Of a stretch of 22,006 bases of DNA, positions 7,505-20,109 are shown one piece after another. Both the position numbers and the translations under genes were made by a program. Each line of letters begins with the position of its first letter. Within the stretch, counting starts at the first letter, position 1. The notes below the pieces were generated by a model, which saw only the letters and a program-made list of their open reading frames with translations, was not told where the DNA came from and ran no database searches. Source of the DNA: a virus. The DNA is taken from the IMG/VR virus record IMGVR_UViG_3300037882_003033, positions 1 through 22,006 of that record; one strand, written 5' to 3'.

Positions 7505-7511
7505 AATTAAA

Positions 7512-7661: not shown

Positions 7662-7668
7662 TGTGTTT

Positions 7669-7697: not shown

Positions 7698-7701
7698 TAA
7701 T

Positions 7702-7737
7702 AAAAAAGAGCGACCTTACGTTTCCGCATGATCGCTC
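7702..7737 (-). terminator. Intrinsic terminator of the large ncRNA
   Basis: In the minus-strand RNA the stem is GAGCGATC...GTCGCTC with an inner TGCG-GAAA-CGTA hairpin, followed directly by UUUUUU. It is one of the strongest terminators in the window. Confidence 0.85.
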
Positions 7738-8423
7738 AATTTAAATCGTAAGCCTCAGAATCCAGCTTTTCAATAGTGAGTTTTTCAACATTATCCCCGC
7801 TGGCGCGGTTTTCTTTGATTTTCCCCGTGATGCCTTACGGCCACCACGATTCACTACATAGGTGCTTATTTTAAGTGGTAGCATTTCCACTGTAACCTAT
7901 TGATACTCCATAACTCTCTGAATCGTCTAACTCCGCTAGGAATCAGTAAAGGCTTGCGGCCACCATGTCTTACCCATTATGAACACAATCTCAGCTTGCG
8001 GCTTTAATCGTGACTTGATTATCCCGAAGGATTCAAGTATTAACCTACTTTTTCAATAGATCAGACCCGACTTTGCATTTTAGATATGTTCCAAATACAT
8101 ACGGCTGTGAGCCATAAACTCAATCAGGGAAGTGCGAGTCTAGTAGCTTCATAACCTTTTGGGTCACGAAATACTACACTCCCCAATATCCTGCTCTTGC
8201 GAAGCATTGGACGATTTTAAAGACTCAAGAATCGGCTTTGACACCAACCCCCTAACTTTAAAAATGCTGGCTTGCCCTCATTTGCAGTTCGGACAATCCA
8301 ACTTGGCTTTAACAATGGTCTTTTGCTCCGATGCTCCTATACCCGTTGGGCCTTTAGAACACCTTCACGCAGATTACAATCCTATTGCTAGAATTTAAAT
8401 TAAGGGTCATTCCACCCTTAATC
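7702..8423 (-). ncRNA. Large structured non-coding RNA, about 720 nt (ROOL/GOLLD-type candidate)
   Basis: About 720 nt with no convincing ORF in the sense direction. The RNA begins with a perfect 9-bp hairpin (ATTAAGGGT/ACCCTTAAT, 8399-8422) about at the predicted start site and ends in a strong terminator. AATTTAAAT segments at 8392-8401 and 7738-7746 can pair to close the whole molecule. Visible internal hairpins include CCGC-GCCA-GCGG, a CGTGGT/ATCACG stem capped by GCC-GUAA-GGC, and two short stems with CGCAA loops. Size, tRNA-array neighbourhood and phage context resemble ornate large RNAs such as ROOL and GOLLD, but I cannot assign a class without a covariance search. At least two promoters precede it. 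Confidence 0.7.
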
Positions 8424-8424
8424 A

Positions 8425-8453
8425 ACTGTTTGCCAATTTTGTTTAAATGTCAA
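8425..8453 (-). promoter_or_regulatory. Proximal promoter of the large ncRNA
   Basis: Minus strand: -35 TTGACA (8453-8448), 17-bp spacer, -10 AACAGT (8430-8425). It places transcription start at the 5' hairpin. The -10 is weak. Confidence 0.45.
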
Positions 8454-8622
8454 CCCTTGCGGGAAGCGCGGACTCGTTGAGAAGTTACCGCTTTTCTCTG
8501 GCTTTTACCAGTATTATCTAAGGATGTCAAACCACCCTTTTTTCAGACTGCTGTTTTTCAAGCAACCCAATAAAGATCATAAAAGGAGTTTCTGTAGTTT
8601 TCTCCAGTTTGTAGAGTTGATG

Positions 8623-8668
8623 TCCTCTACTGTTTCTATATATTACGCGAACTTGTTGATTTCGTCAA
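8623..8668 (-). promoter_or_regulatory. Distal promoter/leader module R1
   Basis: Minus strand: -35 TTGACG (8668-8663), 17-bp spacer, -10 TAATAT (8645-8640), then AAACAGTAGAGGA (8635-8623). The same boxes, same spacing and the same 13-mer occur at 21392-21437, upstream of another structured RNA. The stretch 8454-8690 otherwise holds no convincing gene. Confidence 0.7.
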
Positions 8669-8699
8669 GAGATTTTGTAATTTTTTTTCAAAATTGTTG

Positions 8700-9263: not shown

Positions 9264-9264
9264 A

Positions 9265-10085: not shown

Positions 10086-10491
10086 TGGTGGAGGCGTCGA
10101 CTTTCGAAAGTCGAGTCCAGACAATCTAATTGTCACCTTTACTATCACAATCATTATTTAAGCGATTTAAAGTCTCGTTCTTAACGTCCGACTCGTAGAA
10201 TTTTACAATATACTACAATTATTGTTTTGCCCAAGTTGTTGTTGTCAAACTGTTTGGGATACTAAACTTCGGCTAGTAAACTTTCCCAACAATTTTTCGT
10301 CCTAATTTCTTAGGCGAAAGCGAGGCTAGGTGCAGGAGAAACCGAAGTTTCAAATGCGGCCTTGACCTTGCTGATTGCAGACCTTACGGCTTTTGCTTTT
10401 ATTTTTTATCATCGTTTTTTACGAGGCCAAGATGAAAATCCTCGGATTGTAAGATGCTCAGTTTCAATTGCTGTCGAAACCTTGCGCCCCC
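10086..10491 (-). ncRNA. ssrA: tmRNA (ssrA), phage-encoded
   Basis: A 406-nt gene. The 5' end GGGGGCG pairs with 3' CGCCTCC, then A73-CCA; the G3-U70 wobble is the alanine identity element. Near the 5' end are the tmRNA-typical GGTTTCGACAG and the GAGG/CCTCG helix followed by CGTAAAAAA. The resume codon GCA (10396-10394) opens a 28-codon frame, AKAVRS...APSLAFA, ending with TAA at 10312-10310. The stop lies in a hairpin (CCTAA-GAAA-TTAGG), as in known tmRNAs. The 3' T arm is a TCGAC/GTCGA stem with an 8-nt loop. The product would rescue stalled ribosomes and tag proteins for proteolysis. The tag is long; the -AFA end is like those of mycoplasmas. Confidence 0.92.
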
Positions 10492-11104: not shown

Positions 11105-11180
11105 TGGAGGTCCATGTCAGTGACGATCTGACTACTCATCTTTACGAAAGACGTATTTTACCAACGTAAACTAAAGGACC
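11105..11180 (-). tRNA. tRNA-Thr (CGT)
   Basis: Acceptor GGTCCTT/ATGGACC with one T-T mismatch, anticodon arm CGTCT-TTCGTAA-AGATG, T73, encoded CCA. T arm GTCAG-ATCGTCA-CTGAC has A54 and T58 instead of T54/A58. Confidence 0.85.
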
Positions 11181-11207
11181 ATATTATTAATATTATTAAT
11201 TCTAAAA

Positions 11208-11299
11208 TGGCGGCGGGCCAGAGAATCGAACTCTGACTGGCTTTTAAACCAGATATAATTTCCAATTATACGCAACAAACCAATATTTGCCTACCCGCC
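11208..11299 (-). tRNA. tRNA-Ser (GGA)
   Basis: Acceptor GGCGGGT/GCCCGCC, anticodon arm TATAA-TTGGAAA-TTATA, long variable arm CTGG...CCAG (class II), canonical T loop TTCGATT, G73 and encoded CCA. First of a Ser cluster. Confidence 0.93.
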
Positions 11300-11309
11300 A
11301 TAAATTATG

Positions 11310-11396
11310 TGGAAAACTGACAGCACGATTGCCATACCCTTGATAGGTACCATCTGTTTTCGAAACAGTGTCCGCACCCTGACGGATTAATTTTCC
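11310..11396 (-). tRNA. tRNA-Ser (CGA)
   Basis: Acceptor GGAAAAT/GTTTTCC, D stem TCCG/CGGA, loop TTCGAAA (A27-A43 mismatch), class II variable arm TACC...GGTA. T arm TGGCA-ATCGTGC-TGTCA with A54/T58. A73; CCA not encoded. Confidence 0.85.
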
Positions 11397-11406
11397 TTTA
11401 AAACCG

Positions 11407-11497
11407 AGGAAGAGGTGGGATTTGAACCCACGGTGGCTTATTAGGCACACTCCAATTTTCAAGATTGGAACAATAAACCGGACTCTGACACTCTTCC
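11407..11497 (-). tRNA. tRNA-Ser (TGA)
   Basis: Acceptor GGAAGAG/CTCTTCC pairs 7/7; anticodon arm CCAAT-CTTGAAA-ATTGG; long variable region; T arm GTGGG-TTCAAAT-CCCAC. T at position 73 and no encoded CCA, whereas serine tRNAs normally carry G73. Confidence 0.87.
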
Positions 11498-11657
11498 ATT
11501 TTAGCTGTAACCTCAAGAATCGTCGCGAAATCTCGCTCATCCCTAGTTACTATCGGTTTACTATACCGAGTCGGCGGTGACTATCCCCATTTTTACGATG
11601 ATTAATCGTTTATTCATGTGTAGGATCACACTATCAGGAAATCACTCCTGCGGAGGG
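11498..11657 (-). other. Structured spacer, no recognisable tRNA
   Basis: 160 nt between two tRNAs. It contains an anticodon-arm-like hairpin TCGGT-ATAGTAA-ACCGA and hairpins GCGA-GATT-TCGC, CAGGA/TCCTG, GTGT/ACAC and ACGAT/ATCGT, but no T arm or acceptor stem I can assign. It could be decayed tRNA genes or processing spacers. Confidence 0.35.
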
Positions 11658-11728
11658 TCGTCCTGAAAAGATTTGAACTTTTTCTTAAACCGTGTCGGAG
11701 TTTTTTGCTACCATTACAACACAGGACG
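11658..11728 (-). tRNA. tRNA-Val (GAC), C33
   Basis: Acceptor CGTCCTG/CAGGACG, short D stem TTG/CAA, anticodon arm AAACT-CCGACAC-GGTTT, T arm AAAAG-TTCAAAT-CTTTT, A73. Position 33 is C rather than the near-universal U. The same loop pattern CCnACAC occurs in tRNA-Val (TAC) at 14647, supporting the assignment. No encoded CCA. Confidence 0.68.
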
Positions 11729-11743
11729 TTATTTTAACAAATT

Positions 11744-12013
11744 ATCAAACAGATAATAGCCAACCTTTTGTATCTAGTTTCTCGATTAAACTATGCCCTT
11801 TCGGACATCCCCAACTTTACGTTCGGGTGCTCCAACCTTAGCATTATAGTGCAGCACTACACTAGCTACTTTAGGATTAGTCATACCTTGAGGTGATAGC
11901 GAATATTTCTACTCTCCCTACGGCTGCTGATGACGATTGAACTTCCTCTATGTCGTCCACAAGGGACTTCACAGCCGAGAACTGTCTGTTTGATGATTTT
12001 AAATTTGTTTCAT
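11744..12013 (-). ncRNA. Structured ncRNA, about 250 nt, closed by a 10-bp stem
   Basis: ATCAAACAGA (11994-11985) pairs perfectly with TCTGTTTGAT (11753-11744), enclosing 231 nt. Inside, CGGCTG/CAGCCG closes a junction with hairpins GTCC-CTTGT-GGAC and GACGA...TCGTC. Then come TAGTG-CTG-CACTA, CCC-AAC/GTT-GGG, ATGTCC-GAAA-GGGCAT (GNRA loop) and TAGTTT-AATCGAG-AAACTA. A promoter (12020-12048) starts just upstream. No family recognised. It has AGAGGAAG but not the full conserved core of RNase P RNA. Confidence 0.6.
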
Positions 12014-12474
12014 GTTTTGATATTGTGCGAATTTGATTTGTTTGTCAACTCTTTTGTCGGCCAAAAGTAGTCTAATTTCGCCACTTCTGGCCACTTATAT
12101 TGTTGATAAAATTGGGGATTTTTAAAAAGGAGTGCTGATTTATGACTAGAATGAAGTCGTTCGTCTCCAAGCCAAGGTGGCGGCATACCCTTAAATCCAT
12201 TCGGTGCAAGATTTTGCCACTTTTTAATTTTGTCAAAACAGGTATCTTTATACCCACGCCCAATCCATTCTTCACAAATCGCCAACCCATAATCAACTAA
12301 ATGATTTTCATACGTCCTCCACATTGAAACGGCAGGGTGATTTGCCCACCCCTTTTTATTGTTTAAAATTGTATTGAGGATTTGGAGCGTTTCTACTCTC
12401 ATTTTTCCGAGCCGCTTCATATCTAGGGCTTTCGCAGATTGGGCGAAGTCAGGGTATGGTAGGAAAGATTGCAT
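12010..12474 (-). CDS. MSMEG_6728-family protein (pyrimidine dimer DNA glycosylase-like)
   Basis: A 154-aa protein starting MQSFLPYPDFAQSAKALDMKRLGKMRVETLQIL, followed by WANHPAVSMWRTYENHLVDYGLAICEEW. This is the characteristic pattern of the MSMEG_6728 family, annotated as pyrimidine-dimer glycosylase/endonuclease V-like. If active it would remove UV dimers. The family function is mostly by annotation, not biochemistry. It starts 5 nt after the stop of the 123-aa gene, forming a two-gene operon. Its C-terminal codons overlap the promoter of the downstream structured RNA. Confidence 0.78.
   Translation of the reverse strand: MQSFLPYPDFAQSAKALDMKRLGKMRVETLQILNTILNNKKGWANHPAVSMWRTYENHLVDYGLAICEEWIGRGYKDTCFDKIKKWQNLAPNGFKGMPPPWLGDERLHSSHKSALLFKNPQFYQQYKWPEVAKLDYFWPTKELTNKSNSHNIKT
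12020..12048 (-). promoter_or_regulatory. Promoter of the 250-nt structured RNA and following tRNAs
   Basis: Minus strand: -35 TTGACA (12048-12043), 17-bp spacer, -10 CAATAT (12025-12020), embedded in the end of the glycosylase-like gene. Confidence 0.55.
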
Positions 12475-12479
12475 ATTTA

Positions 12480-12851
12480 TTATACTGACACAATTTCAAT
12501 ACTTTCTGTCAAAACTCGTTGAATGGTTCCTTCTACTAATTCCTTCCATTCGTCTATTGAAAGAAGGATGTGGGGTTTTGAGGGGTGTTTAAACCCAATA
12601 AGAACTGCGTAGCCATTTTTTGTTTTTTCTGTCTCGCTATAAACGTAAGTGGGATATACTTTAATGCATTGTCGCAAGGAATTTATCGCCGCCCCCCGAT
12701 TTGCGAAGACAGTCTTTCCACTTCCGGCGCGGAACTGATTTCCTGTTTTTTTAAAAATTACTTTAAAACGGGGGCTATTTGGTTCAATGCTGTAATGTTT
12801 TTCTAGCCGTTCTGTCAAATTTTGGAACGTTTCGTCGTCGTTGTATCTCAT
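12480..12851 (-). CDS. Hypothetical 123-aa protein
   Basis: Soluble protein MRYNDDETFQNLTERLEKHYSI... with a basic Gly-rich stretch KKTGNQFRAGSGKTVFANRGAA (about 49-70) and a C-terminal helix LVEGTIQRVLTESIEIVSV. No family recognised. First gene of the operon with the glycosylase-like protein. The promoter (12861-12889) leaves only about 2 nt of leader. Confidence 0.65.
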   Translation of the reverse strand: MRYNDDETFQNLTERLEKHYSIEPNSPRFKVIFKKTGNQFRAGSGKTVFANRGAAINSLRQCIKVYPTYVYSETEKTKNGYAVLIGFKHPSKPHILLSIDEWKELVEGTIQRVLTESIEIVSV

Positions 12852-12860
12852 GATCTAACT

Positions 12861-12889
12861 ATATTGAACTATTTTGATGTTTTTGTCAA
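12861..12889 (-). promoter_or_regulatory. Promoter of the 123-aa/glycosylase operon
   Basis: Minus strand: -35 TTGACA (12889-12884), 17-bp spacer, -10 CAATAT (12866-12861); the ATG at 12851 is 9 nt from the -10. The boxes match the promoter at 12020-12048. A divergent plus-strand gene starts at 12900. Confidence 0.55.
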
Positions 12890-12899
12890 CCCCAATGTA

Positions 12900-13313
12900 A
12901 TGAATATCGTGAATCTTTTTAAATTCTTTTTAATCGGGGCCGTGTTTTTGACTTTTACTGGTTGCGAACCGAAACCCCAGTCTATTGATTCTATTGTTTT
13001 TAATAACCACGAATTAAGTGGGTGCGTTATTGACGCCGCACTTTATCGCGCCATTTACAAGCAAAATAATTCATTAAAGAAATACTATTGGAGCAAAATT
13101 TTAATGATTAAATTTAAGGGCTCCAACGACGGCCACGCCACTTGTGTCTATATGATTAATATTAAAGATAACGAAAACCCTCTTGACAATATTGTTTTTT
13201 CTTATGACTTTCATAAGGGCTCTCGCATGGTTCCTTTGATTTTAAGAAATAACCCGTTGGGAATCGCCCGATATCTTTACGGGGATAAGGTGGAACTCGC
13301 AATATTTTTGTGA
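12900..13313 (+). CDS. Lipoprotein, 137 aa
   Basis: From the ATG at 12900 the N-terminus is MNIVNLFKFFLIGAVFLTFTGCEP, a signal peptide with lipobox FTGC; Cys22 should be lipidated. The upstream open frame lies in the divergent promoter region. The mature part (SIDSIVFNNHELSGCVIDAALY...) has two further Cys and a YMINIKD strand. Family unknown. It is one of few plus-strand genes and stands alone between divergent and convergent neighbours. Confidence 0.72.
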   Translation: MNIVNLFKFFLIGAVFLTFTGCEPKPQSIDSIVFNNHELSGCVIDAALYRAIYKQNNSLKKYYWSKILMIKFKGSNDGHATCVYMINIKDNENPLDNIVFSYDFHKGSRMVPLILRNNPLGIARYLYGDKVELAIFL

Positions 13314-13351
13314 AAACTGCGCGAGCGAAATTGTCGGTGTGCTATTATCTA

Positions 13352-13394
13352 GGACAGCATCTCACGCATAACCCCTAGAATAAGGTTGCGTGAA
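13352..13394. repeat. Inverted repeat between convergent units
   Basis: TCACGCA...TGCGTGA with inner AACC/GGTT pairing (loop about 10 nt) downstream of the lipoprotein and upstream of tRNA-Ser (GCT). There is no U-run, so it is not a classical terminator. Confidence 0.45.
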
Positions 13395-13408
13395 AATTAC
13401 CGAAGGGG

Positions 13409-13496
13409 CGGCGGGCTGACAGCACGATTGCCATGCCTTTTGAGGGGCACCAGAGAATTAGCAATTCCCGTTCATCACCCGATGAATTAACCCGCC
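13409..13496 (-). tRNA. tRNA-Ser (GCT)
   Basis: Acceptor GGCGGGT/GCCCGCC, anticodon arm GGGAA-TTGCTAA-TTCTC, class II variable arm TGCC...GGCA, G73. T arm TGGCA-ATCGTGC-TGTCA (A54/T58) is identical to that of tRNA-Ser (CGA). The next bases are CCC, not CCA. Confidence 0.88.
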
Positions 13497-13505
13497 GTAT
13501 TAAAT

Positions 13506-13583
13506 TGGTCCTAGCGGCAGGCGTTGCTCCTGCATATTTTCATTTATCAAATGAACCCCATTACTAATCTCGGGCACACTAGG
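13506..13583 (-). tRNA. tRNA-Ile (GAT), copy 1
   Basis: Acceptor CCTAGTG/CGCTAGG with C1-G72, D stem CCC/GGG, anticodon arm TTCAT-TTGATAA-ATGAA, T arm GCAGG-AGCAACG-CCTGC (non-canonical loop), A73, encoded CCA. Confidence 0.82.
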
Positions 13584-13594
13584 ATTAATGTTTT

Positions 13595-13870
13595 TTATCT
13601 TCTTCTATTATTACTCAATTTGTGAGAAACGCAAGCATTTTTGTGCTTTTGTCGCCACTTTATCCAGTTCGCTACGCTCTCATTCTCCCTCAATAATTCT
13701 ATTGAATTTAAATGATACTTGAGTGTTGGGTTTGAGAATAAAACATGAATTTGTCTGTGACATTCTTCGCAAATTAGAACAGTTTGAGTGCCTCCCTTAA
13801 TTTTGGGGACGACGTGATGTTTACTATTTGCACTTGCTACTTCACAAATTGGACATATTTCTTGGATCAT
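13595..13870 (-). CDS. Small HNH endonuclease
   Basis: A 91-aa protein from the ATG at 13870. Zinc ligands CPIC (6-9) and CEECH (34-38) bracket SKHHVVPKIKGG (HH at 18-19), and RQIHVLF supplies the distal His. This is the classic small HNH fold. It lies between a tRNA-Ile and an aberrant tRNA-like gene, which is consistent with a homing nuclease living in the tRNA array. Confidence 0.82.
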   Translation of the reverse strand: MIQEICPICEVASANSKHHVVPKIKGGTQTVLICEECHRQIHVLFSNPTLKYHLNSIELLRENESVANWIKWRQKHKNACVSHKLSNNRRR

Positions 13871-13876
13871 ATAAAA

Positions 13877-14026
13877 TGGAGCCAACGGTGGGATTTGGCA
13901 CCCACACTGAGACGAAACGAAATCAATGGGCGTAATGCCATACTATTTTTCATTGCAACCTTAAAGTCACTCACTAGGCGTCTTGCTCTTTCTAACCCGA
14001 ATATAGTGCGGTTAAGCTACGTTGGC
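13877..14026 (-). other. tRNA-like gene with expanded D loop and anticodon loop (150 nt)
   Basis: Acceptor GCCAACG/CGTTGGC pairs 7/7, with T73 and an encoded CCA. D stem GCTT/GAGC encloses a 25-nt loop with its own AACC/GGTT hairpin. Stem AGACG/CGTCT at the anticodon position encloses about 67 nt instead of 7. The T arm GTGGG/CCCAC has an 8-nt loop. It may be an intron-containing or a decayed tRNA. Anticodon not assignable. Confidence 0.5.
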
Positions 14027-14034
14027 GAAAATCG

Positions 14035-14106
14035 AGCCCGCACCGTGAATCAAACACGGATTCCCTGAATACCACACAGGAGTAATAGTCATTATACTAT
14101 ACGGGC
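14035..14106 (-). tRNA. tRNA-Thr (GGT)
   Basis: Acceptor GCCCGTA/TGCGGGC, D stem GTA/TAC, anticodon arm CCTGT-GTGGTAT-TCAGG (31-39 mismatch), T arm CCGTG-TTTGATT-CACGG, T73, no encoded CCA. Confidence 0.8.
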
Positions 14107-14148
14107 ATTCGTTTTTGTTTATCTATCCACAGAACGATAACTGCGCCG

Positions 14149-14219
14149 TACGTCATGAGATAATCGAAATCTCGCTATATCGTTGGCAACGATAAGTTCT
14201 ACCACTAAACTAATGACGC
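14149..14219 (-). tRNA. tRNA-Gly (GCC)
   Basis: Acceptor GCGTCAT/ATGACGT (G1-T72 wobble), D stem GTT/AAC, anticodon arm TATCG-TTGCCAA-CGATA, T arm GAGAT-TTCGATT-ATCTC. No encoded CCA. Confidence 0.88.
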
Positions 14220-14231
14220 ATAATTAAAACG

Positions 14232-14303
14232 CCGGATAAGTTGGTAACGCTCCAACCTTTGAACTTTTTCAGAATTCCACTAATCTATCTCAGTTATTAT
14301 CCG
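14232..14303 (-). tRNA. tRNA-Phe (GAA)
   Basis: Acceptor CGGATAA/TTATCCG (C1-G72), D stem ACT/AGT, anticodon arm GAATT-CTGAAAA-AGTTC, T arm GTTGG-AGCGTTA-CCAAC with A54/T58. Position 73 is G; no CCA. Phe tRNAs normally have A73. Confidence 0.85.
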
Positions 14304-14315
14304 TTAAATTGAAAT

Positions 14316-14403
14316 TGGAGCACTATATCAGAGTTGAACTGATTATGAGATTTCTCTCCATCCTTTTGCAGAGGATTCGCTCAAGCCGGATGCGTCATAG
14401 TGC
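14316..14403 (-). tRNA. tRNA-Cys (GCA), class II variable arm
   Basis: Acceptor GCACTAT/ATAGTGC, D stem CGC/GCG, anticodon arm ATCCT-CTGCAAA-AGGAT, T arm ATCAG-TTCAACT-CTGAT, encoded CCA. T73 is the Cys identity base. The variable region is 16 nt with a GAGA-GAAA-TCTC hairpin, unlike the 4-5 nt of ordinary tRNA-Cys. Confidence 0.85.
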
Positions 14404-14415
14404 ATAAATTGTTTT

Positions 14416-14542
14416 AAATACCAGAAAGACTTGAACTTTCAATTGGGTAGTTCTTATAGTAAGATTACTCCATCGGTTTACCATTTCAACTATCTTAATT
14501 TCGGGATTTGGCCGACTTCCTCTGCCATTTGGATATGGTATT
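14416..14542 (-). other. tRNA-like gene with long anticodon-loop insert (127 nt)
   Basis: Acceptor AATACCA/TGGTATT pairs 7/7; D stem TCC/GGA; T arm GAAAG-TTCAAGT-CTTTC canonical. The stem GTCGG/CCGAT at the anticodon position encloses 35 nt, and the variable region is 31 nt. Same layout as the gene at 15087-15210. Anticodon not assignable; no CCA. Confidence 0.5.
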
Positions 14543-14549
14543 TAAAATT

Positions 14550-14612
14550 AAATGGCGGATTTTCGCCGCCATAGGGATCGCGCTGATTACTCAACGTTAT
14601 CCTCCACCATTC
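14550..14612 (-). other. Possible decayed or T-armless tRNA
   Basis: AATGGTG and CGCCATT pair 7/7 over 62 nt, with a GAT/ATC D-like hairpin between them. No T arm and no clear anticodon arm can be drawn. Confidence 0.25.
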
Positions 14613-14646
14613 TAAGTTTTTAAACTTAAAAGTAATAAAATAAAAA

Positions 14647-14721
14647 TGGTGCAAGAGGAGAATTTTGCAATCTCAACCTTCTCCGTGTAGGGGAGTTGCT
14701 CAACTTTTGAGCTACTCTTGC
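14647..14721 (-). tRNA. tRNA-Val (TAC), C33
   Basis: Acceptor GCAAGAG/CTCTTGC, D stem GCTC/GAGC, anticodon arm ACTCC-CCTACAC-GGAGA, A73, encoded CCA. Position 33 is C, as in the tRNA-Val at 11658. T loop TGCAAAA is atypical. Confidence 0.8.
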
Positions 14722-14841
14722 GTTAAATTTAAAACCCTAAATTTCGCCTTCCGTATATTTAGTATCTCTCACCAGTCGTTCCATTTCGGGACACACCCAT
14801 TGGTGATTTTTAAACACTGGACTGCCGTTTGTTGTTTTAAA
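14722..14841 (-). other. Structured spacer without tRNA
   Basis: 120 nt containing a TCACCA/TGGTGA stem around a GTCCC-GAAAT-GGAAC hairpin, and a CTAAAT/ATTTAG hairpin. No tRNA cloverleaf and no coding signal seen. Confidence 0.3.
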
Positions 14842-14921
14842 TGGTGGAGGTATCGCGGTTCCAACGCGACTGATTATTCTCATTGCAAGTGAGACGGCCA
14901 CAGCCAGCAGCCCCTACCCCC
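14842..14921 (-). tRNA. tRNA-Ala (TGC)
   Basis: Acceptor GGGGGTA/TACCTCC with the G3-T70 wobble (alanine identity), D stem GGC/GCC, anticodon arm TCTCA-CTTGCAA-TGAGA, T arm TCGCG-TTGGAAC-CGCGA, A73, encoded CCA. Confidence 0.92.
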
Positions 14922-14995
14922 TTAAATTTATTCTACATCGCGCCATATCACTTTATAGAATTAAAGACCGAATTATTTGAGCTTCAATAATAAAT

Positions 14996-15070
14996 TGGTA
15001 GCCCTACTTGCTTACGAGGCAAGACATTAAAATTTTCTAAGAATTTTTTCTCTCTTTGGAATATAGGGCC
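14996..15070 (-). tRNA. tRNA-Leu (TAG), short variable loop
   Basis: Acceptor GGCCCTA/TAGGGCT, D stem TTC/GAA, anticodon arm AAATT-CTTAGAA-AATTT, T arm CTTGC-CTCGTAA-GCAAG, A73, encoded CCA. The variable region is only 6 nt, unusual for bacterial tRNA-Leu. Confidence 0.78.
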
Positions 15071-15086
15071 ATATAAATTAAATTAA

Positions 15087-15210
15087 TCACATAGACAGGA
15101 CTTGAACCTGTATAAGAAAACTCTACTAGAAGTTGTATGTCTTCACGCCCGTCATCGCCATGTCTTCCTTTTGGCTACTAACGTGCTGCTGTGCCATTCG
15201 CTACAATGTG
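15087..15210 (-). other. tRNA-like gene with long anticodon-loop insert (124 nt)
   Basis: Acceptor CACATTG/CTATGTG (one mismatch), D arm GC...GC, T arm ACAGG-TTCAAGT-CCTGT canonical, A73. CACG/CGTG at the anticodon position encloses 34 nt with an inner GCCA/TGGC hairpin. The 31-nt variable region holds an AACTT-CTAGTA-GAGTT hairpin. Same layout as 14416-14542. Confidence 0.5.
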
Positions 15211-15217
15211 ATTAAAT

Positions 15218-15292
15218 TGGCAGCGTTCACCGTGGACAATCGGCACTTCCACCCCTAATAGGTGGTGTTCTATGTATTTAAACTATCGCGCT
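15218..15292 (-). tRNA. Degenerate tRNA, anticodon uncertain
   Basis: D stem GTT/AAC, anticodon-type stem CCACC/GGTGG with loop TATTAGG, T-type stem TGCCG/CGGTG with an 8-nt loop, encoded CCA. Only 4 of 7 acceptor pairs (AGCG/CGCT) form. Possibly a pseudogene. Confidence 0.4.
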
Positions 15293-15295
15293 AAA

Positions 15296-15371
15296 TGGTA
15301 CTCGCGGACGGGATTGAGCCGACACTGTTATCGTTTTGAATGATATGCCTCCTGCATTGGGCTACGCGAGC
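15296..15371 (-). tRNA. tRNA-Leu (CAA), short variable loop
   Basis: Acceptor GCTCGCG/CGCGAGT, D stem GCC/GGC, anticodon arm TATCA-TTCAAAA-CGATA (A31-C39 mismatch shared with tRNA-Leu TAA), T arm GTCGG-CTCAATC-CCGTC, A73, encoded CCA. Class I size. Confidence 0.78.
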
Positions 15372-15372
15372 A

Positions 15373-15954
15373 TTAAATCTTTTTATAGTGAACCCAACAC
15401 TCACCATAATATTTTTTTACTTCAAAATTGTTGGGGAGAAGTTCGTTGACTGCGCGGTTTACGCCTTCCCAGCCGTAGTCGTGGCCAGAAAGAATTCCAC
15501 CCTTTTTAACTTTTGGCAACCACGCTTTGATGTCGGCTTTTACGTCTTCATAATTGTGAGAGGCATCAATATAAACGATATCTAAACTTTCATCAGCAAA
15601 CGACGCCGCCGCTTTGATTGATTCATTTTTAATTGGAAATACAATGGATTTTTGGTCATTAACAACTTTCATGTTAGACACAAATAAATCGTAGAGACTT
15701 CCGTTTTTCACATAAGAATCATTTTGATGAATATCAAGGTCTAATTGGCCAAGCCATGTATCAACGGCAAAAACTTTAATGTCTTTACCAGAATTAAAAA
15801 CTTCAACTGCTAAATAAATTGTGGAACGACCTTTCCAAGAACCGACCTCAACGATTACCCCATCTGAGGGGCAAGCGTTAACAAATTCACTGTACAAATT
15901 TTGGTAATCAAACCAATCTTCGCCGTATTGTGGTTGTGTATAAACGTGTTCCAT
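15373..15954 (-). CDS. Class I SAM methyltransferase (Methyltransf_24-like), second copy
   Basis: A 193-aa protein with motif I VIVEVGSWKGRSTIYLA (33-49), AVDTW (about 64-68) and DIVYIDASHNYEDVKADI (about 124-141), then LPKVKKGGILSGHDYGWEGV. This is typical of Methyltransf_24 and cephalosporin-hydroxylase-like enzymes. It is only distantly similar to the methyltransferase at 10519-11097. Substrate unknown; such genes often act on surface sugars. It sits among tRNA genes, the ATG at 15954 following tRNA-Arg (TCG) on the same strand. Confidence 0.83.
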   Translation of the reverse strand: MEHVYTQPQYGEDWFDYQNLYSEFVNACPSDGVIVEVGSWKGRSTIYLAVEVFNSGKDIKVFAVDTWLGQLDLDIHQNDSYVKNGSLYDLFVSNMKVVNDQKSIVFPIKNESIKAAASFADESLDIVYIDASHNYEDVKADIKAWLPKVKKGGILSGHDYGWEGVNRAVNELLPNNFEVKKYYGECWVHYKKI

Positions 15955-15996
15955 ATTCCTATAATAAGGGTGGTGGCTTGATCTGTCTAATATTTA

Positions 15997-16073
15997 TGGT
16001 GGACCCCGCGAGATTTGAACTCGCACTAATTTTGGTTCGAAGCCAAATTGACTTTCCAGTTGCCGAGAGGTCC
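15997..16073 (-). tRNA. tRNA-Arg (TCG)
   Basis: Acceptor GGACCTC/GGGGTCC, anticodon arm TTTGG-CTTCGAA-CCAAA, T arm GCGAG-TTCAAAT-CTCGC, A73, encoded CCA. Fully canonical. Confidence 0.93.
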
Positions 16074-16080
16074 ATAAAAG

Positions 16081-16168
16081 TGCATCAGGTGGGATTTGAA
16101 CCCACAGTGTTTACCTCTTGGGTATATCGTTTTAAGTGATATGCGTTTCGCCGTTTCGCCACTGATGC
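16081..16168 (-). tRNA. tRNA-Leu (TAA), class II
   Basis: Acceptor GCATCAG/CTGATGC, D stem GCG/CGC, anticodon arm TATCA-CTTAAAA-CGATA, long variable arm TACC-CAAGA-GGTA, T arm GTGGG-TTCAAAT-CCCAC, A73, CCA not encoded. Confidence 0.9.
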
Positions 16169-16218
16169 TTAAATTAATTTGTTAAAAGCGTGTTTTTACA
16201 CCAAAAAACAATTGAGCC

Positions 16219-16374
16219 TTACCAATTACGGGGTTCTCGTTTACTTTCCACGGTTAGACGGTATCCAATGGGCATCTCAATATCTAACTTTGATAAATTG
16301 CACATCACCACAGTCATTCCCGAATAAAGGTCGGGAATCGTTGGCGTCGGAGGCCCGCGCTTCGGTTTAATCAT
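16219..16374 (-). CDS. Possible small protein, 51 aa
   Basis: An uninterrupted minus-strand frame in an otherwise RNA-free gap: ATG at 16374 (MIKPKRGPPTPTIPDLYSG...) to TAA at 16219-16221 (...ESKREPRNW). Composition is protein-like (Pro-rich start, amphipathic middle). No Shine-Dalgarno or recognised family. It is the best explanation for the 247-bp gap between tRNA-Leu and tRNA-Tyr. Confidence 0.4.
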   Translation of the reverse strand: MIKPKRGPPTPTIPDLYSGMTVVMCNLSKLDIEMPIGYRLTVESKREPRNW

Positions 16375-16415
16375 TAAAGATGGCTACTTCTAAGCCTACT
16401 TCTTCTAACAAAAAA

Positions 16416-16503
16416 TGGTGGGCAGTCAGGGAATCGAACCCTGTTAGGTTTTTAGGCCGCTTGGTTTACAGCCAAGATCGCATCCTTAACGAGATACCTA
16501 CCC
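16416..16503 (-). tRNA. tRNA-Tyr (GTA)
   Basis: Acceptor GGGTAGG/ACTGCCC, anticodon arm CTTGG-CTGTAAA-CCAAG, class II variable arm, T arm CAGGG-TTCGATT-CCCTG, A73, encoded CCA. Confidence 0.92.
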
Positions 16504-16510
16504 AATAAAA

Positions 16511-16585
16511 TGGTGTTGCATACAAGAATTGAACTTGTCCTTAGACTTTCGCAAAGTCTCGTGCGATCCGATACACTAATGCAAC
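16511..16585 (-). tRNA. tRNA-Arg (GCG)
   Basis: Acceptor GTTGCAT/ATGCAAC, D stem GTG/CAC, anticodon arm AGACT-TTGCGAA-AGTCT, T arm ACAAG-TTCAATT-CTTGT, A73, encoded CCA. G34 is notable because bacteria usually read CGC with inosine-modified ACG. Confidence 0.9.
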
Positions 16586-16591
16586 ATAAAA

Positions 16592-16665
16592 TGGCGGCGT
16601 ATAGGGGTAACGATCCCCTTTCAGCGAGTTGAGAACTCACAGTATTACCTTTATACGAATACGCC
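16592..16665 (-). tRNA. tRNA-Glu (CTC)
   Basis: Acceptor GGCGTAT/ATACGCC, D stem GTAT/ATAC, anticodon arm GTGAG-TTCTCAA-CTCGC, T arm AGGGG-ATCGTTA-CCCCT (A54/T58), G73, encoded CCA. Confidence 0.9.
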
Positions 16666-16674
16666 AATTAAATG

Positions 16675-16745
16675 CACGAGGGGATGGCAACGAACCACCA
16701 ACTTTCGCGACAAACGGCGAATATTTTACTTTAAACTACCCAAGT
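16675..16745 (-). tRNA. Degenerate tRNA, anticodon uncertain
   Basis: Acceptor ACTTGGG/CCCTCGT with two mismatches, D stem GTTT/AAAT, anticodon-type stem TTCGC/GCGAA with an 8-nt loop CGTTTGTC, T arm GGTGG-TTCGTTG-CCATC, position 73 G. The loop could hold GTT, TTT or TTG. No CCA. Confidence 0.45.
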
Positions 16746-16754
16746 ATAAAAACG

Positions 16755-16826
16755 CACGGCCAACAGGTAACGCTCCTGCTCACAAAAAGGTGAAAACTTT
16801 TCTGCCTGCTTTGGGCACTTGACCGC
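16755..16826 (-). tRNA. tRNA-Glu (TTC)
   Basis: Acceptor GCGGTCA/TGGCCGT, D stem TGCC/GGCA, anticodon arm AAAAG-TTTTCAC-CTTTT, T arm GCAGG-AGCGTTA-CCTGT (A54/T58), G73, no encoded CCA. Confidence 0.87.
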
Positions 16827-16836
16827 ATTTAAATTG

Positions 16837-17001
16837 TTAAAAATTGATACCGAACACTTTGAGTAAGTATCCAATATAAACCAAAATAAGGATGACTGCC
16901 GCGACGGTCAAAAAGACCCCTGCAATAATCATGGCGAGAAGCACATAGATTAGATAGAGGACAAGACCAGCGACGACTGCTTTGATTAATGTTTGAATCA
17001 T
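16837..17001 (-). CDS. Small membrane protein, 54 aa
   Basis: From the ATG at 17001: MIQTLIKAVVAGLVLYLIYVL..., almost entirely hydrophobic, with two predicted transmembrane helices (about 6-24 and 26-46) and the end FGINF. The longer upstream frame runs into tRNA-His and is rejected. A promoter at 17009-17036 puts transcription start 7 nt after the -10, at the ATG. AGGTAAT precedes the ATG, but little of it would be transcribed. Confidence 0.65.
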   Translation of the reverse strand: MIQTLIKAVVAGLVLYLIYVLLAMIIAGVFLTVAAVILILVYIGYLLKVFGINF

Positions 17002-17008
17002 ATTACCT

Positions 17009-17036
17009 ATTATAGTGGTATAATGGGTATAGTCTA
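17009..17036 (-). promoter_or_regulatory. Promoter of the 54-aa membrane protein
   Basis: Minus strand: -35 TAGACT (17036-17031), 16-bp spacer, perfect -10 TATAAT (17014-17009), 7 nt from the ATG. Confidence 0.6.
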
Positions 17037-17049
17037 ATTTATTTAAAAA

Positions 17050-17123
17050 TGGGTTGACCGTGGATATTTGCAATCCATTATTCTGTTTCACAAACAGAGA
17101 CATCACTCAAATGCTTCGGCCAA
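17050..17123 (-). tRNA. tRNA-His (GTG)
   Basis: Acceptor TTGGCCG/CGGTCAA, anticodon arm TCTGT-TTGTGAA-ACAGA, T arm TGGAT-TGCAAAT-ATCCA, C73 (His identity), encoded CCA. The base before position 1 is T, so the usual encoded G-1 is missing. Confidence 0.88.
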
Positions 17124-17141
17124 AGTGTTTTTTATAAAAGC

Positions 17142-17213
17142 AGAGGGCTAGAAAATCGAATTCTACCAGTCTGATTTGGAGTCAAACTCGCCAGCCTTGG
17201 AACATGGCCCTCT
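17142..17213 (-). tRNA. tRNA-Trp (CCA)
   Basis: Acceptor AGAGGGC/GCCCTCT, anticodon arm TTTGA-CTCCAAA-TCAGA, T arm TAGAA-TTCGATT-TTCTA, G73 (Trp identity). D stem weak (wobbles); 3' CCA not encoded. Confidence 0.87.
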
Positions 17214-17220
17214 ATTGAAA

Positions 17221-17295
17221 TGGTGGGTTGTCAGGGAATCAAACCCTGTTCTCAAGAGTAAGAATCAAGAGCATCATCATTTATGCTTACAACCC
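17221..17295 (-). tRNA. tRNA-Lys (CTT)
   Basis: Acceptor GGGTTGT/ACAACCC, D stem GCAT/ATGC, anticodon loop TTCTTAC on a stem with two T-T mismatches, T arm CAGGG-TTTGATT-CCCTG, A73, encoded CCA. Confidence 0.82.
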
Positions 17296-17303
17296 GTTAA
17301 ATT

Positions 17304-17380
17304 GTGGTGAAGAGAGATTTGGACTCCCACTATGTCTCCGTTATATTGGAGTGCCTCTTGTTTTGTTGGGCTATTCACCG
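17304..17380 (-). tRNA. tRNA with ambiguous anticodon (TAT or similar)
   Basis: Acceptor CGGTGAA/TTCACCA (C1xA72 mismatch; an alternative register pairs GGTGAAT/CTTCACC), D stem GCC/GGC, T arm GGGAG-TCCAAAT-CTCTC. The anticodon stem CTCC/GGAG holds an 8-nt loop AATATAAC, so the anticodon is uncertain. Confidence 0.55.
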
Positions 17381-17384
17381 AAAG

Positions 17385-17455
17385 CTCCCTGCCGTGGACT
17401 CGCACCACGACTTAACAATTTCAAAGACTGCCGTGCTACTTTACACTAACAGGGA
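17385..17455 (-). tRNA. tRNA-Gln (TTG)
   Basis: Acceptor TCCCTGT/GCAGGGA, D stem GTG/CAC, anticodon arm GCAGT-CTTTGAA-ATTGT, T arm CGTGG-TGCGAGT-CCACG, G73, no encoded CCA. Confidence 0.86.
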
Positions 17456-17516
17456 ATAAATAAAACGCCCGAAATTCTATCTAATTTAATAGAGGAAGAG
17501 TTGCTTCGGGACTGTG

Positions 17517-17602
17517 CTATATCGGAAGGTGACGATCCTTCATGCTTTTGGGCTCACCGTTTCAGAGACGGGACAGGAATGCCAACTATCCTGAGCGATA
17601 TA
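17517..17602 (-). tRNA. tRNA-Gln (CTG), extended variable region
   Basis: Acceptor TATATCG/CGATATA, D stem CAGG/CCTG, anticodon arm CCCGT-CTCTGAA-ACGGT, T arm GAAGG-ATCGTCA-CCTTC (A54/T58), G73. The variable region is 14 nt (GC-CCAAAA-GC), unusual for Gln. No CCA. Confidence 0.82.
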
Positions 17603-17607
17603 ATAAA

Positions 17608-17688
17608 TGGAGTCGTGTTTATTTTAAATGTCCGGGCCGGAAAAACCTCATTCACTACTGGTTTTCAAGGACTTGCGACTAACATTGA
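17608..17688 (-). other. Non-canonical hairpin RNA in a tRNA slot
   Basis: AGTCG/CGACT end stem, GTCC/GGAC and AAAACC/GGTTTT nested stems, and a terminal CCA with the same spacer as the neighbouring tRNAs. No T arm or anticodon arm can be drawn. Confidence 0.3.
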
Positions 17689-17689
17689 A

Positions 17690-17751
17690 TGGTGGAACCA
17701 TAACCGTTCGGTTTAGAAGACCGATGTGCTGTCCTCTAACACTCTAGTTCC
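17690..17751 (-). tRNA. T-armless tRNA-Arg (TCT), 62 nt
   Basis: Acceptor GGAACTA/TGGTTCC pairs 7/7 (one wobble), D arm GTG/CAC, perfect anticodon arm TCGGT-CTTCTAA-ACCGA, A73 and encoded CCA. Only 7 nt (ACGGTTA) lie between anticodon stem and acceptor, so the T arm is absent. A complete tRNA-Arg (TCT) is at 19964. Confidence 0.65.
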
Positions 17752-17773
17752 GTTTATAAATTGATTAAATGAA

Positions 17774-17874
17774 ATATTCTGGTAGGATTCGAACCTACGT
17801 CATCAGAGCCATACTCTTTTTGGCAGTATCTTTCCACATAGTATGGTTGCGGTCTTCCACTGAACTACAGAATA
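17774..17874 (-). other. tRNA-like gene with anticodon-region insert (101 nt)
   Basis: Acceptor TATTCTG/CAGAATA 7/7, T arm GTAGG-TTCGAAT-CCTAC canonical, D arm near GTTCAGTGGAAGAC. In place of a normal anticodon arm, CCATACT/AGTATGG closes about 24 nt that can also form GCCA/TGGC. T73, no CCA. Anticodon not assignable. Confidence 0.5.
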
Positions 17875-17876
17875 AA

Positions 17877-17962
17877 TGGTGGGCGTGGCAGGATTTGAAC
17901 CCGCATGGTATTACTCCGCGACGTTCTCGACATCGTGCGTCTGCCAATTTCGCCACACGCCC
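17877..17962 (-). tRNA. tRNA-Leu (GAG), class II, C33
   Basis: Acceptor GGGCGTG/CACGCCC, D stem GCG/CGC, anticodon arm CGATG-TCGAGAA-CGTCG with C at position 33, long variable arm, T arm GCGGG-TTCAAAT-CCTGC, A73, encoded CCA. Confidence 0.87.
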
Positions 17963-18083
17963 ATAAAAATAATCCTATATTTTATCGTAAATAGAATTCA
18001 AGTGCGTTGTCAGTGTCGCGAATGACTTTTGGTTGAATTTATAAGACTGAGGTTTATTGCTTTACTTGGGATAGGAAATTAAA

Positions 18084-18130
18084 TGGCGTTTATAATGGGA
18101 TTTGACCCCGTTTTAGTGTAATGATTATAT
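18084..18130 (-). pseudogene. tRNA 3' fragment next to an endonuclease gene
   Basis: A 3' half with T arm ACGGG-GTCAAAT-CCCAT, TATAAAC, G73 and CCA. No convincing matching 5' half (GTTTATA) is found; the expected position is occupied by the start of the plus-strand nuclease gene at 18131. It looks like a tRNA broken by that insertion. The preceding stretch 17963-18083 shows no feature. Confidence 0.45.
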
Positions 18131-19006
18131 ATGATAATACTAACCCAAAACTTGAAAGACATTTCCCTTAAAGGACTTGTGGATATTCAGTGTGAATATT
18201 GTAAAAATATTTATCAACTAACTAAAAAATCTGTAAAAGCTAAAAAAAAATATGAAAAAGCTGGATATTGTTCTAAACGTTGTAGGAATATAGCTAATGG
18301 TAAGTTAATTTTGTGTAAATGTAGTCAATGTAACTCTTTACTTGAAAGGTGCAGAAAAGAGTATATAAAATCTACCGCTCATTTCTGTTCAAACTCTTGT
18401 TCTGCCAAATTTTATAATCCCAAAAAAGATTGGGCTCAAATATGGACCTCAGAAAAAAGAGAAAAGATATCAAAATGGGCTAAAATACACGCACATAAAA
18501 TTTCTCTTGAAGAAATTCGTAGAAACCCTAAATTTAAAGATTTAAAATTGTGCGAAAGAGTTTGCCCGATTTGTTTTTCTAATTTTGTGGCAAAACACGC
18601 ATCCCATAAACAAAAATATTGTTCTAAAGAATGTTGTTCTAAACGGCCCAATCAAGGTGGTTTCCGCGAAAATTCAACTAGGTTACACCGATGTATTTAT
18701 AATGGAATTAAAATGGACTCCGGTTCTGAAAAGAAGTTTGCAGAAATTTTAGACAAAAACAATATTCGGTGGTCAAAAAACTCCACTAAATACTATTCAT
18801 ACGAATTTGAAGGAAAGAACAAGAAATATTATCCTGATTTTTATTTACCCGACTTAAAATTGTGGGTAGAGATCAAAGGAAAAATTTACGTTGAACTTTG
18901 GCTTCCTAATAAACTTCAATCGGTTAAAGACGCCGGAGAAAATATTGTTATGATTTTTTCTAAAGAAATTAAGGAAGACTTTGTTCTTAATTTGATTAAG
19001 CGGTGA
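18131..19006 (+). CDS. Zn-finger / PD-(D/E)XK homing-type endonuclease
   Basis: A 291-aa plus-strand gene inside the minus-strand tRNA array. The N-terminal half has repeated Cys pairs (CEYC 21-24, YCSKRC 46-51, CKCSQC 62-67, FCSNSC 85-90, CPIC 145-148, YCSKEC 163-168), suggesting several small zinc-binding DNA-reading modules. The C-terminal domain has SGSEKKFAEIL, YPDFYLPD (D236) and WVEIKGK (E247, K249), a PD-(D/E)XK / Vsr-like core as in EDxHD-type homing nucleases. Its TGA stop lies in the acceptor stem of tRNA-Asp, and its start abuts a broken tRNA, so it is probably mobile. Confidence 0.85.
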   Translation: MIILTQNLKDISLKGLVDIQCEYCKNIYQLTKKSVKAKKKYEKAGYCSKRCRNIANGKLILCKCSQCNSLLERCRKEYIKSTAHFCSNSCSAKFYNPKKDWAQIWTSEKREKISKWAKIHAHKISLEEIRRNPKFKDLKLCERVCPICFSNFVAKHASHKQKYCSKECCSKRPNQGGFRENSTRLHRCIYNGIKMDSGSEKKFAEILDKNNIRWSKNSTKYYSYEFEGKNKKYYPDFYLPDLKLWVEIKGKIYVELWLPNKLQSVKDAGENIVMIFSKEIKEDFVLNLIKR

Positions 19007-19072
19007 TACTGATATTTGAAATCAGCCTTCAACCTTGACAGGATTGTGTGCGAACCACTACACTACATCACC
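19001..19072 (-). tRNA. tRNA-Asp (GTC)
   Basis: Acceptor GGTGATG/TATCACC, D stem GTG/CAC, anticodon arm CAATC-CTGTCAA-GGTTG, T arm CTGAT-TTCAAAT-ATCAG, G73 (Asp identity). CCA not encoded. The 3' end overlaps the endonuclease stop codon. Confidence 0.92.
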
Positions 19073-19083
19073 ATAAATTAAAA

Positions 19084-19157
19084 TGGTCCTCCGACAACGA
19101 TTTGAACGCTGACACCACCCACATCAAGGGTGTTCTCTACCATTAAGACACCGGAGG
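19084..19157 (-). tRNA. tRNA-Ile (GAT), copy 2
   Basis: Acceptor CCTCCGG/TCGGAGG (C1-G72), D stem TCT/AGA, anticodon arm CACCC-TTGATGT-GGGTG, T arm CAGCG-TTCAAAT-CGTTG, A73, encoded CCA. Position 37 is G. Confidence 0.83.
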
Positions 19158-19164
19158 ATAAAAA

Positions 19165-19243
19165 TGGTCCTAGTGCTGGGCGATGCTCCCAGTACCCGAC
19201 GCTTATAAAGCGTCCGCTCTGACTAATCGTGAGCTACACTAGG
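19165..19243 (-). tRNA. tRNA-Ile (TAT)
   Basis: Acceptor CCTAGTG/CACTAGG, D stem GCTC/GAGC, anticodon arm GACGC-TTTATAA-GCGTC, T arm CTGGG-AGCATCG-CCCAG (A54/T58), A73, encoded CCA. Reads AUA directly. Confidence 0.9.
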
Positions 19244-19278
19244 TTTTTAAAATTTAATCTCCGACTTACTCGGAGTGA

Positions 19279-19352
19279 TGGTAGCTCTCGTCCGTATTGA
19301 CCGGACATCTAACCGCGTATGAAACGATTGCTTTACATTAAGCTAGAGAGCC
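19279..19352 (-). tRNA. tRNA-Met or tRNA-Ile2 (CAT), copy 1
   Basis: Acceptor GGCTCTC/GAGAGCT (G1-T72), D stem GCTT/AAGC, anticodon arm ATCGT-TTCATAC-GCGGT, T arm GTCCG-GTCAATA-CGGAC, A73, encoded CCA. It lacks the three G-C pairs of initiator tRNA. Elongator Met or lysidine-modified Ile cannot be separated. Confidence 0.8.
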
Positions 19353-19382
19353 ATAAATGGTTGCGGGAACCCCGCATATAAA

Positions 19383-19462
19383 TGGAGCTTCCTCTCAGCG
19401 ACGATCTGAGTTTTCCCGAGTACAAAACGGGGGTTTTAAAATCCAACGTAAACTAAGGAAGC
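19383..19462 (-). tRNA. tRNA-Thr (TGT)
   Basis: Acceptor GCTTCCT/AGGAAGC, D stem GTTT/AAAC, anticodon arm CCCGT-TTTGTAC-TCGGG (31-39 mismatch), T arm CTCAG-ATCGTCG-CTGAG (A54/T58), T73, encoded CCA. D arm and T arm resemble tRNA-Thr (CGT). Confidence 0.85.
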
Positions 19463-19474
19463 GAAATTAATTCA

Positions 19475-19561
19475 GGGACACCTATCAGATAAAATGTGTA
19501 TCCCAATACGCTATAAAGTGGCACCAACTCCCCTAGTTCTTATCTGAGAATAGAGGTGTCC
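19475..19561 (-). ncRNA. tRNA-sized structured RNA without T loop
   Basis: GGACACC/GGTGTCC (7 bp) encloses an 8-bp stem TCAGATAA/TTATCTGA. Inside are AACT-AGGGG-AGTT and GTAT-TGGG-ATAC hairpins. It occupies a tRNA slot but has no T arm or anticodon arm, so it may be a small ncRNA or a strongly diverged tRNA. Confidence 0.4.
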
Positions 19562-19592
19562 GGTATTGTTATCTTTAGAGGTTTTGAAAGCC

Positions 19593-19664
19593 AGCACCAT
19601 GAGAGAATCGAACTCTCGTCTCAACTTTGGAAAAGTCAAGTAATAGCCATTATACGAATGGTGC
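19593..19664 (-). tRNA. tRNA-Gly (TCC)
   Basis: Acceptor GCACCAT/ATGGTGC, D stem GTA/TAC, anticodon arm TGACT-TTTCCAA-AGTTG, T arm GAGAG-TTCGATT-CTCTC, T73 (Gly-like), no encoded CCA. Confidence 0.9.
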
Positions 19665-19716
19665 ATTAAATTGTTTTGAACAGTTTTAATTCTCACGATT
19701 GTTCAGGAACGTTAAA

Positions 19717-19793
19717 TGGTCGGAAATCAGGGTGCTGCCCCCTGCTATATCCTGATCCCAAATCAGGCGTCCACGCTGGCAGACTCATTTCCG
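19717..19793 (-). tRNA. tRNA-Pro (TGG)
   Basis: Acceptor CGGAAAT/ATTTCCG with C1-G72 and A73 (Pro identity), D stem GTC/GAC, anticodon arm CCTGA-TTTGGGA-TCAGG, T stem CAGGG/CCCTG with unusual loop GGCAGCA, encoded CCA. Confidence 0.9.
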
Positions 19794-19802
19794 TTAAAAT
19801 TT

Positions 19803-19860
19803 GGAACGGGCTTTTTAGTGACGACCCATGAATAGGAATTTCACCTATTTCGTTCCATCC
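19803..19860 (-). other. Short hairpin RNA in a tRNA slot
   Basis: TGGAACG/CGTTCCA 7-bp end stem with an inner AATAGG-TGAAATT-CCTATT hairpin, total about 56 nt. Too short for a tRNA; possibly a deleted tRNA remnant. Confidence 0.25.
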
Positions 19861-19880
19861 TAGTCAATTAGGAATTTAAA

Positions 19881-19957
19881 TGGCTCTCCCCCTTCGTAAC
19901 GATCGAAGTTGATTTTGCTTAACAGGCAAACGGTTCGGTCCTACCACCCCGAGGAGA
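19881..19957 (-). tRNA. tRNA-Asn (GTT)
   Basis: Acceptor TCTCCTC/GGGGAGA, D stem GGT/ACC, anticodon arm TTTGC-CTGTTAA-GCAAA, T arm CTTCG-ATCGTTA-CGAAG (A54/T58), G73 (Asn identity), encoded CCA. Confidence 0.9.
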
Positions 19958-19963
19958 ATAAAT

Positions 19964-20036
19964 TGGTGCTCCCTAACAGAATCGAACTGTTTCAGCGGGC
20001 TTAGAAGACCCAAGCCTAGAATCCACTAGAGGGAGC
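19964..20036 (-). tRNA. tRNA-Arg (TCT)
   Basis: Acceptor GCTCCCT/AGGGAGC, anticodon arm TGGGT-CTTCTAA-GCCCG, T arm AACAG-TTCGATT-CTGTT, A73, encoded CCA. Complete counterpart of the T-armless gene at 17690. Confidence 0.9.
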
Positions 20037-20041
20037 AAAGT

Positions 20042-20109
20042 AGCGGATTCGGTTACGATCACGACCCACCAGCTTATGAAACTGGTATGCTCCCAGAGCA
20101 CTTATCCGC
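20042..20109 (-). tRNA. tRNA (CAT), copy 2, weak T arm
   Basis: Acceptor GCGGATA/AATCCGC, D stem TGCT/AGCA, anticodon arm CCAGT-TTCATAA-GCTGG. The T arm (near GTCGT-GATCGTA-ACCGA) pairs poorly and the gene is 68 nt. Met or Ile2; possibly degenerate. No CCA. Confidence 0.6.

Follow-up and report, generated by a model that had tools for sequence, protein, structure and literature searches.

A divergent GOLLD RNA with a predicted promoter and terminator in a virus carrying a tRNA and tmRNA island

Described GOLLD RNAs and the identity of the locus

The cryo-EM structure of GOLLD env-38 is a closed 14-mer, a hollow RNA-only cage that is empty but for its linker, with caps made of 5′ domains, rings made of 3′ domains and an inward-pointing linker (PMC12286853). 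Some GOLLD RNAs carry a tRNA in this linker (PMC12286853; PMC6582537). GOLLD expression rises during lysis (PMC12286853), and a ribosome pull-down has been reported, as cited in the same paper. Phage ICP1 produces an orf-less transcript of ~800 nt that has been likened to GOLLD and ROOL and is its most abundant phage transcript (PMC7567579); according to a citation in that paper, a GOLLD RNA was reported not to be needed for producing phage in Lactobacillus brevis. ROOL is likewise a large phage RNA that forms a hollow cage and often lies near tRNAs (PMC12286853).

The window analysed here is the complete 22,006-base IMG/VR record IMGVR_UViG_3300037882_003033, presumably from a tailed phage, and it encodes a single GOLLD copy. 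All features are on the minus strand unless stated otherwise. An Rfam scan of the window matched GOLLD (RF02032) at 8184-7751 over the full model (1-416 of 416; E 7.9e-46). A separate Rfam search of 7500-8800 returned GOLLD at E 4.7e-47 and no match at E ≤ 1 to ROOL or to any other family. An earlier note on this DNA had proposed a large ornate RNA of the ROOL or GOLLD type, or else a new class, in a phage genome with a tRNA array, and had suggested a covariance-model search. The search settles the identity: the large structured RNA is a member of the known GOLLD family and no new type of RNA, the full-length RF02032 match leaves the new class unsupported, and the virus record indeed holds 26 tRNA genes beside the RNA. 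The score of 167.9 bits exceeds the gathering score (150) by only 18 bits and is low for the family, with relatives scoring up to 319. The window copy is a new, divergent GOLLD member. We read it as the GOLLD RNA of a virus with a tRNA and tmRNA island, running from its own promoter to a terminator, with a two-domain fold and, by homology, a homo-oligomeric cage (probability about 0.87).

To gather relatives, viral contigs were scanned for sequence patterns and the matched records were then searched with the Rfam GOLLD model. This yielded 51 GOLLD loci outside the window. Xanthomonas phage XacN1 contributes two of these, and another lies on a 194,705-base contig that also occurs in Oceanobacillus profundus; 37 non-redundant GOLLD RNAs, window included, were usable for alignment. 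Neither the RNA nor the complete window had a DNA-level match among 50,697 phage records, and no relatives were recovered from viral contigs through the flanking proteins (phosphatase 8700-9284, methyltransferase 6529-7341). The two window proteins tried had only distant relatives (<60% identity).

The window RNA shares with GOLLD env-38 (PMC12286853) two domains, a variable linker at the same place, pseudoknots, a length >800 nt, a phage origin, adjacent tRNAs and a full-length 3′-domain match, and it likely shares the contact between loop L27 and linker J24/26. It differs from env-38 by scoring weakly, by changed letters in L27 and J24/26, by the divergence of its 5′ domain, by a linker of 53-59 nt that lacks a tRNA, and by a tmRNA gene 1.5 kb upstream. 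The GOLLD of the jumbo phage XacN1 (AP018399.1; loci L124/L125) is alike in having tRNA genes beside it and a tmRNA ~1 kb upstream of the 3′ domain; unlike the window copy it scores 227 bits, the permuted model RF04321 also hits its tmRNA region, and the two have no match at the DNA level.

Extent and predicted transcription of the RNA

The whole RNA is placed at 7702..8633 (~930 nt), with the 5′ end predicted from a promoter and the 3′ end from a terminator. The promoter, TTGACG-17-TAATAT at 8640..8668, predicts a start near 8633 and rests on a consensus scan together with the relatives, as the scan alone was not above chance (11 sites found in the region, 11.1 expected). Most loci among the relatives have a strict TTGAC-(17-19)-TAnnnY site ahead of the 3′ domain, mostly by 400-510 nt; 23 were found against 1.5 expected in shuffles, and the distance in the window is 484 nt. 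An intrinsic terminator hairpin with a GAAA loop and a U tract lies at 7702..7737 (-18.9 kcal/mol, z -5.8). Transcription from an own promoter of the sigma-70 type, starting near 8633 and ending near 7702, is predicted from these elements. The earlier note had given the RNA its own promoters, a strong terminator near 7702 and an extent of ~720 nt up to 8423. The terminator is borne out, and comparative support goes to one promoter, not to several. Because the promoter lies at 8668-8640 and covarying 5′-domain helices at 8537-8443 fall outside the earlier limit, the RNA spans ~8633-7702 and the extent first drawn was ~210 nt short. The complementarity of the AATTTAAAT ends, to which that note had also drawn attention, is trivial, because these ends have a palindromic core and there are 9 copies of the 9-mer across the window against 2.8 expected; a closing helix formed by these ends was rejected on these sequence grounds.

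The RNA stretch is non-coding, as had been claimed. No sense ORF of ≥50 aa appears over it in the ORF list, the longest stop-to-stop stretch in the sense frames of 7702-8423 is 51 codons, and no coding frame was found in the sense strand. On the sense strand, 7702-8640 folds with z -6.1 relative to 30 approximately dinucleotide-preserving shuffles, whereas the antisense value (z +0.3) is that expected by chance. Several hairpins with the GNRA-type sequence CGCAAG occur in the RNA, in line with the GNRA-type hairpins noticed earlier. A protein-coding region or messenger leader in place of a structured RNA could point to an antisense ORF of 79 aa (8159-8398, plus strand, TTG start), but the short sense frames, the absence of an antisense folding signal and the promoter-to-terminator unit speak against it, and covariation across divergent relatives already refutes it; its probability is practically nil.

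Covarying structure of the two domains

The 3′ domain (7751..8184) corresponds to the full Rfam GOLLD model. Covariation was assessed in the 37 sequences over 568 columns, comprising 180 nt before the 3′ domain and the 3′ domain minus most of the linker, by an APC-corrected G-test against 40 alignments simulated along a maximum-likelihood tree (GTR+G). In this test, which is our own R-scape-like procedure with few simulations and not R-scape itself, covariation at E < 0.05 relative to the phylogenetic null is seen for 30 column pairs. The earlier note had named stems without covariation as evidence against its proposal; the covariation found is strong. The gathered relatives provide an independent, phylogeny-controlled check of GOLLD helices and pseudoknots.

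An outer stem (8183-8180/8128-8131) and a hairpin (8038-8032/8013-8021) are both supported by covariation. The linker-flanking helix 8140-8136/8064-8068 (8064..8140; three pairs at E < 0.05 and two more at E 0.1) crosses the outer stem to form a pseudoknot. A long-range helix, 8059-8054/7902-7897 (7897..8059), consists of six adjacent covarying pairs, all at E < 0.05, and is crossed by a second pseudoknot, 8047-8043/7863-7859 (7859..8047), with four covarying pairs and 100% standard pairs across the 37 sequences. From the text of PMC12286853, this crossing helix probably corresponds to the L22-J17/22 pseudoknot of GOLLD. The domain ends in the terminal hairpin P27 with loop L27 (7766-7752), of which stem pairs 7766-7764/7752-7754 covary at E < 0.05.

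In the cryo-EM structure, loop L27 pairs with linker J24/26 (PMC12286853). J24/26 lies at about 7826-7821 in the window, and the corresponding tertiary pair is 7821-7760, A-U in the window copy. Its covariation falls just above the 0.05 line (E 0.075), with standard pairs in all sequences and 4 pair types; these counts were taken from the alignment, as a regular expression for J24/26 picked the wrong site in a few loci. Such borderline covariation supports the cryo-EM contact, without proving it. L27 reads GGATTCTGA in the window and in no other aligned sequence, the rest carrying GTAATCTCA or a close variant, and it differs from relatives at two near-invariant positions. J24/26 reads GGGGA instead of GTGGA, and the window is the sole aligned sequence with GGGGA. 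Being unique in both, the window RNA has therefore changed the two elements together, a joint change that would keep the contact.

These altered letters, together with the low family score, are also what a pseudogene might present, that is, a degraded copy that still matches the model and has lost assembly. Standard pairs are nevertheless retained in the window at 27 of the 30 strongly covarying pairs, pseudoknots included (the exceptions are 8029/8022, 7981/7910 and 7979/7912), the copy has both a promoter and a terminator, its L27-J24/26 pair persists as T-A in DNA letters, and loop and partner have changed together, as compensation predicts. Degradation is accordingly quite improbable, and a divergent GOLLD RNA is the reading that we retain.

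The 5′ domain (8185..8633), the cage cap in the known structure, is less conserved, and over the whole GOLLD family it can be aligned only poorly. An alignment of 25 GOLLD RNAs gave 8 pairs at E < 0.05 in this domain. Five are standard in the window (8534/8525, 8533/8526, 8527/8446, 8461/8456 and 8288/8280) and three are not, through either alignment error or real divergence; two further covarying pairs, 8291/8277 and 8263/8215, come from the 37-sequence test. The loop of the hairpin 8537-8522 pairs with 8446-8443, forming a further pseudoknot that includes the loop contact 8527/8446. In the known structure, two half-shells are closed by loops L21a and L21b, each of which pairs with its own copies in other chains (PMC12286853). 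GOLLD chains also kiss through L20 and J13/15, a contact that the 37-sequence covariation test did not pick out. By eye in the alignment, most relatives have a TTAGCG-like loop on the first hairpin of the interface region and CGCAAG on the second, whereas in the window CGCAAG caps the first hairpin and CTAGCG the second; both candidate loops in the window hold a self-complementary GC. If these hairpins are L21a and L21b, the loops would be exchanged in the window relative to most relatives.

A GOLLD-related RNA with a different assembly, of another ring size or with no cage, could follow from such a divergent 5′ domain. The poor family-wide alignment, the three non-standard pairs among the eight strongest and the apparent loop exchange beside the half-shell interface favour this. 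Against it, part of the window 5′ domain is recognisably common to relatives such as loci L163, L147 and L137, the mismatches may be alignment error, and the loop reading derives from the alignment. We consider it unlikely, and we hold the same opinion of a structural variant in which a cage would form but differ from the 14-mer in copy number or closure, through the 5′ domain, L27 and J24/26, and the exchanged loops. The two-domain GOLLD fold described above remains the preferred reading.

Within the 3′ domain lies the variable linker (8069..8127; 53-59 nt), bounded by covarying helices and located inside the cage in the known structure. Neither a normal nor a permuted tRNA was found in it. 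D-arm-like and anticodon-arm-like hairpins can be drawn; a decayed tRNA was rejected, and the stretch 8142-8086, which covers part of the linker, folds no better than shuffles (z -0.8). Relatives often have a tRNA at the linker site: ARAGORN finds one in 12 or more of the first 43 loci. Separately, the GOLLD linker of IMGVR_UViG_3300009154_000117 (L162; also L080) contains a circularly permuted tRNA in the order T arm, 3′ acceptor strand with CCA, short loop, 5′ acceptor strand, D arm and anticodon arm, with acceptor strands GGGGAGT and ACTCCCC forming 7/7 pairs. Among the six contigs picked up by a follow-up scan, no other had this arrangement.

Genomic neighbourhood and possible cage function

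Upstream of the GOLLD RNA are a tmRNA gene (10086..10491; RF00023, 85.5 bits, gathering 47), the reading frame of which ends PSLAFA followed by a stop, and an array of 26 tRNA genes (11105..20319; ARAGORN, with a few more by Rfam). Downstream are genes for two methyltransferases, an HNH-type protein, a phosphoesterase-like protein, a polynucleotide kinase and an RNA ligase. Flanked on one side by tmRNA and tRNAs and on the other by the RNA ligase and polynucleotide kinase genes, the GOLLD RNA occupies a translation and RNA-repair island. The locus adds to the family a divergent GOLLD with a compact, tRNA-free linker and such a neighbourhood.

Family identity, two-domain covarying structure and this genomic context are established here for the window RNA. 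By analogy with published homologues, the RNA should form a hollow homo-oligomeric cage with the linker inside, and it is probably expressed in the lytic phase. RNA made from the sigma-70-type promoter near 8633 to the intrinsic terminator near 7702 would fold into 5′ and 3′ domains joined by helices, pseudoknots and tertiary contacts. Many copies may then assemble without protein, as in env-38, into a hollow cage with caps from 5′ domains, rings from 3′ domains and the linker 8127-8069 pointing inward. The most likely use would be a lytic-phase RNA compartment that holds or organises translation-related cargo. That this cargo is tRNA- or ribosome-related is a tentative guess, favoured by the tRNA arrays, the linker tRNAs and the ribosome pull-down. 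The varied linker contents (tRNA, no tRNA and one permuted tRNA) make the idea of a tRNA-like cargo testable.

A general linkage between tmRNA and GOLLD is unsupported with RF00023, which passes its cut-off in 4 of 51 records, window included, with one match spanning only 83 bases; this model undercounts, as the XacN1 tmRNA scored 33 bits with it and was found with the beta and permuted models. In locus L123 of XacN1, the tmRNA region upstream of GOLLD (1511-1930) matches beta_tmRNA and tmRNA_permuted. Directly after the window tmRNA, a clear tRNA-like sequence is seen by eye at 10080-10008 (acceptor GGCCATA/TATGGCC, anticodon CCT, encoded CCA), which is absent from the ARAGORN and Rfam gathering lists. 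At 778-2837, a T4 Rnl1-like RNA ligase and a polynucleotide kinase are encoded close together, like a tRNA repair pair. A GOLLD-type hairpin pattern also occurs outside the gathered loci, at 1387-1409 of a Saprospiraceae MAG contig (CALGAW010000074.1; L193), among densely packed tRNA genes, one of which follows it directly; it gave no GOLLD match above the gathering score, and it is perhaps a more divergent relative.
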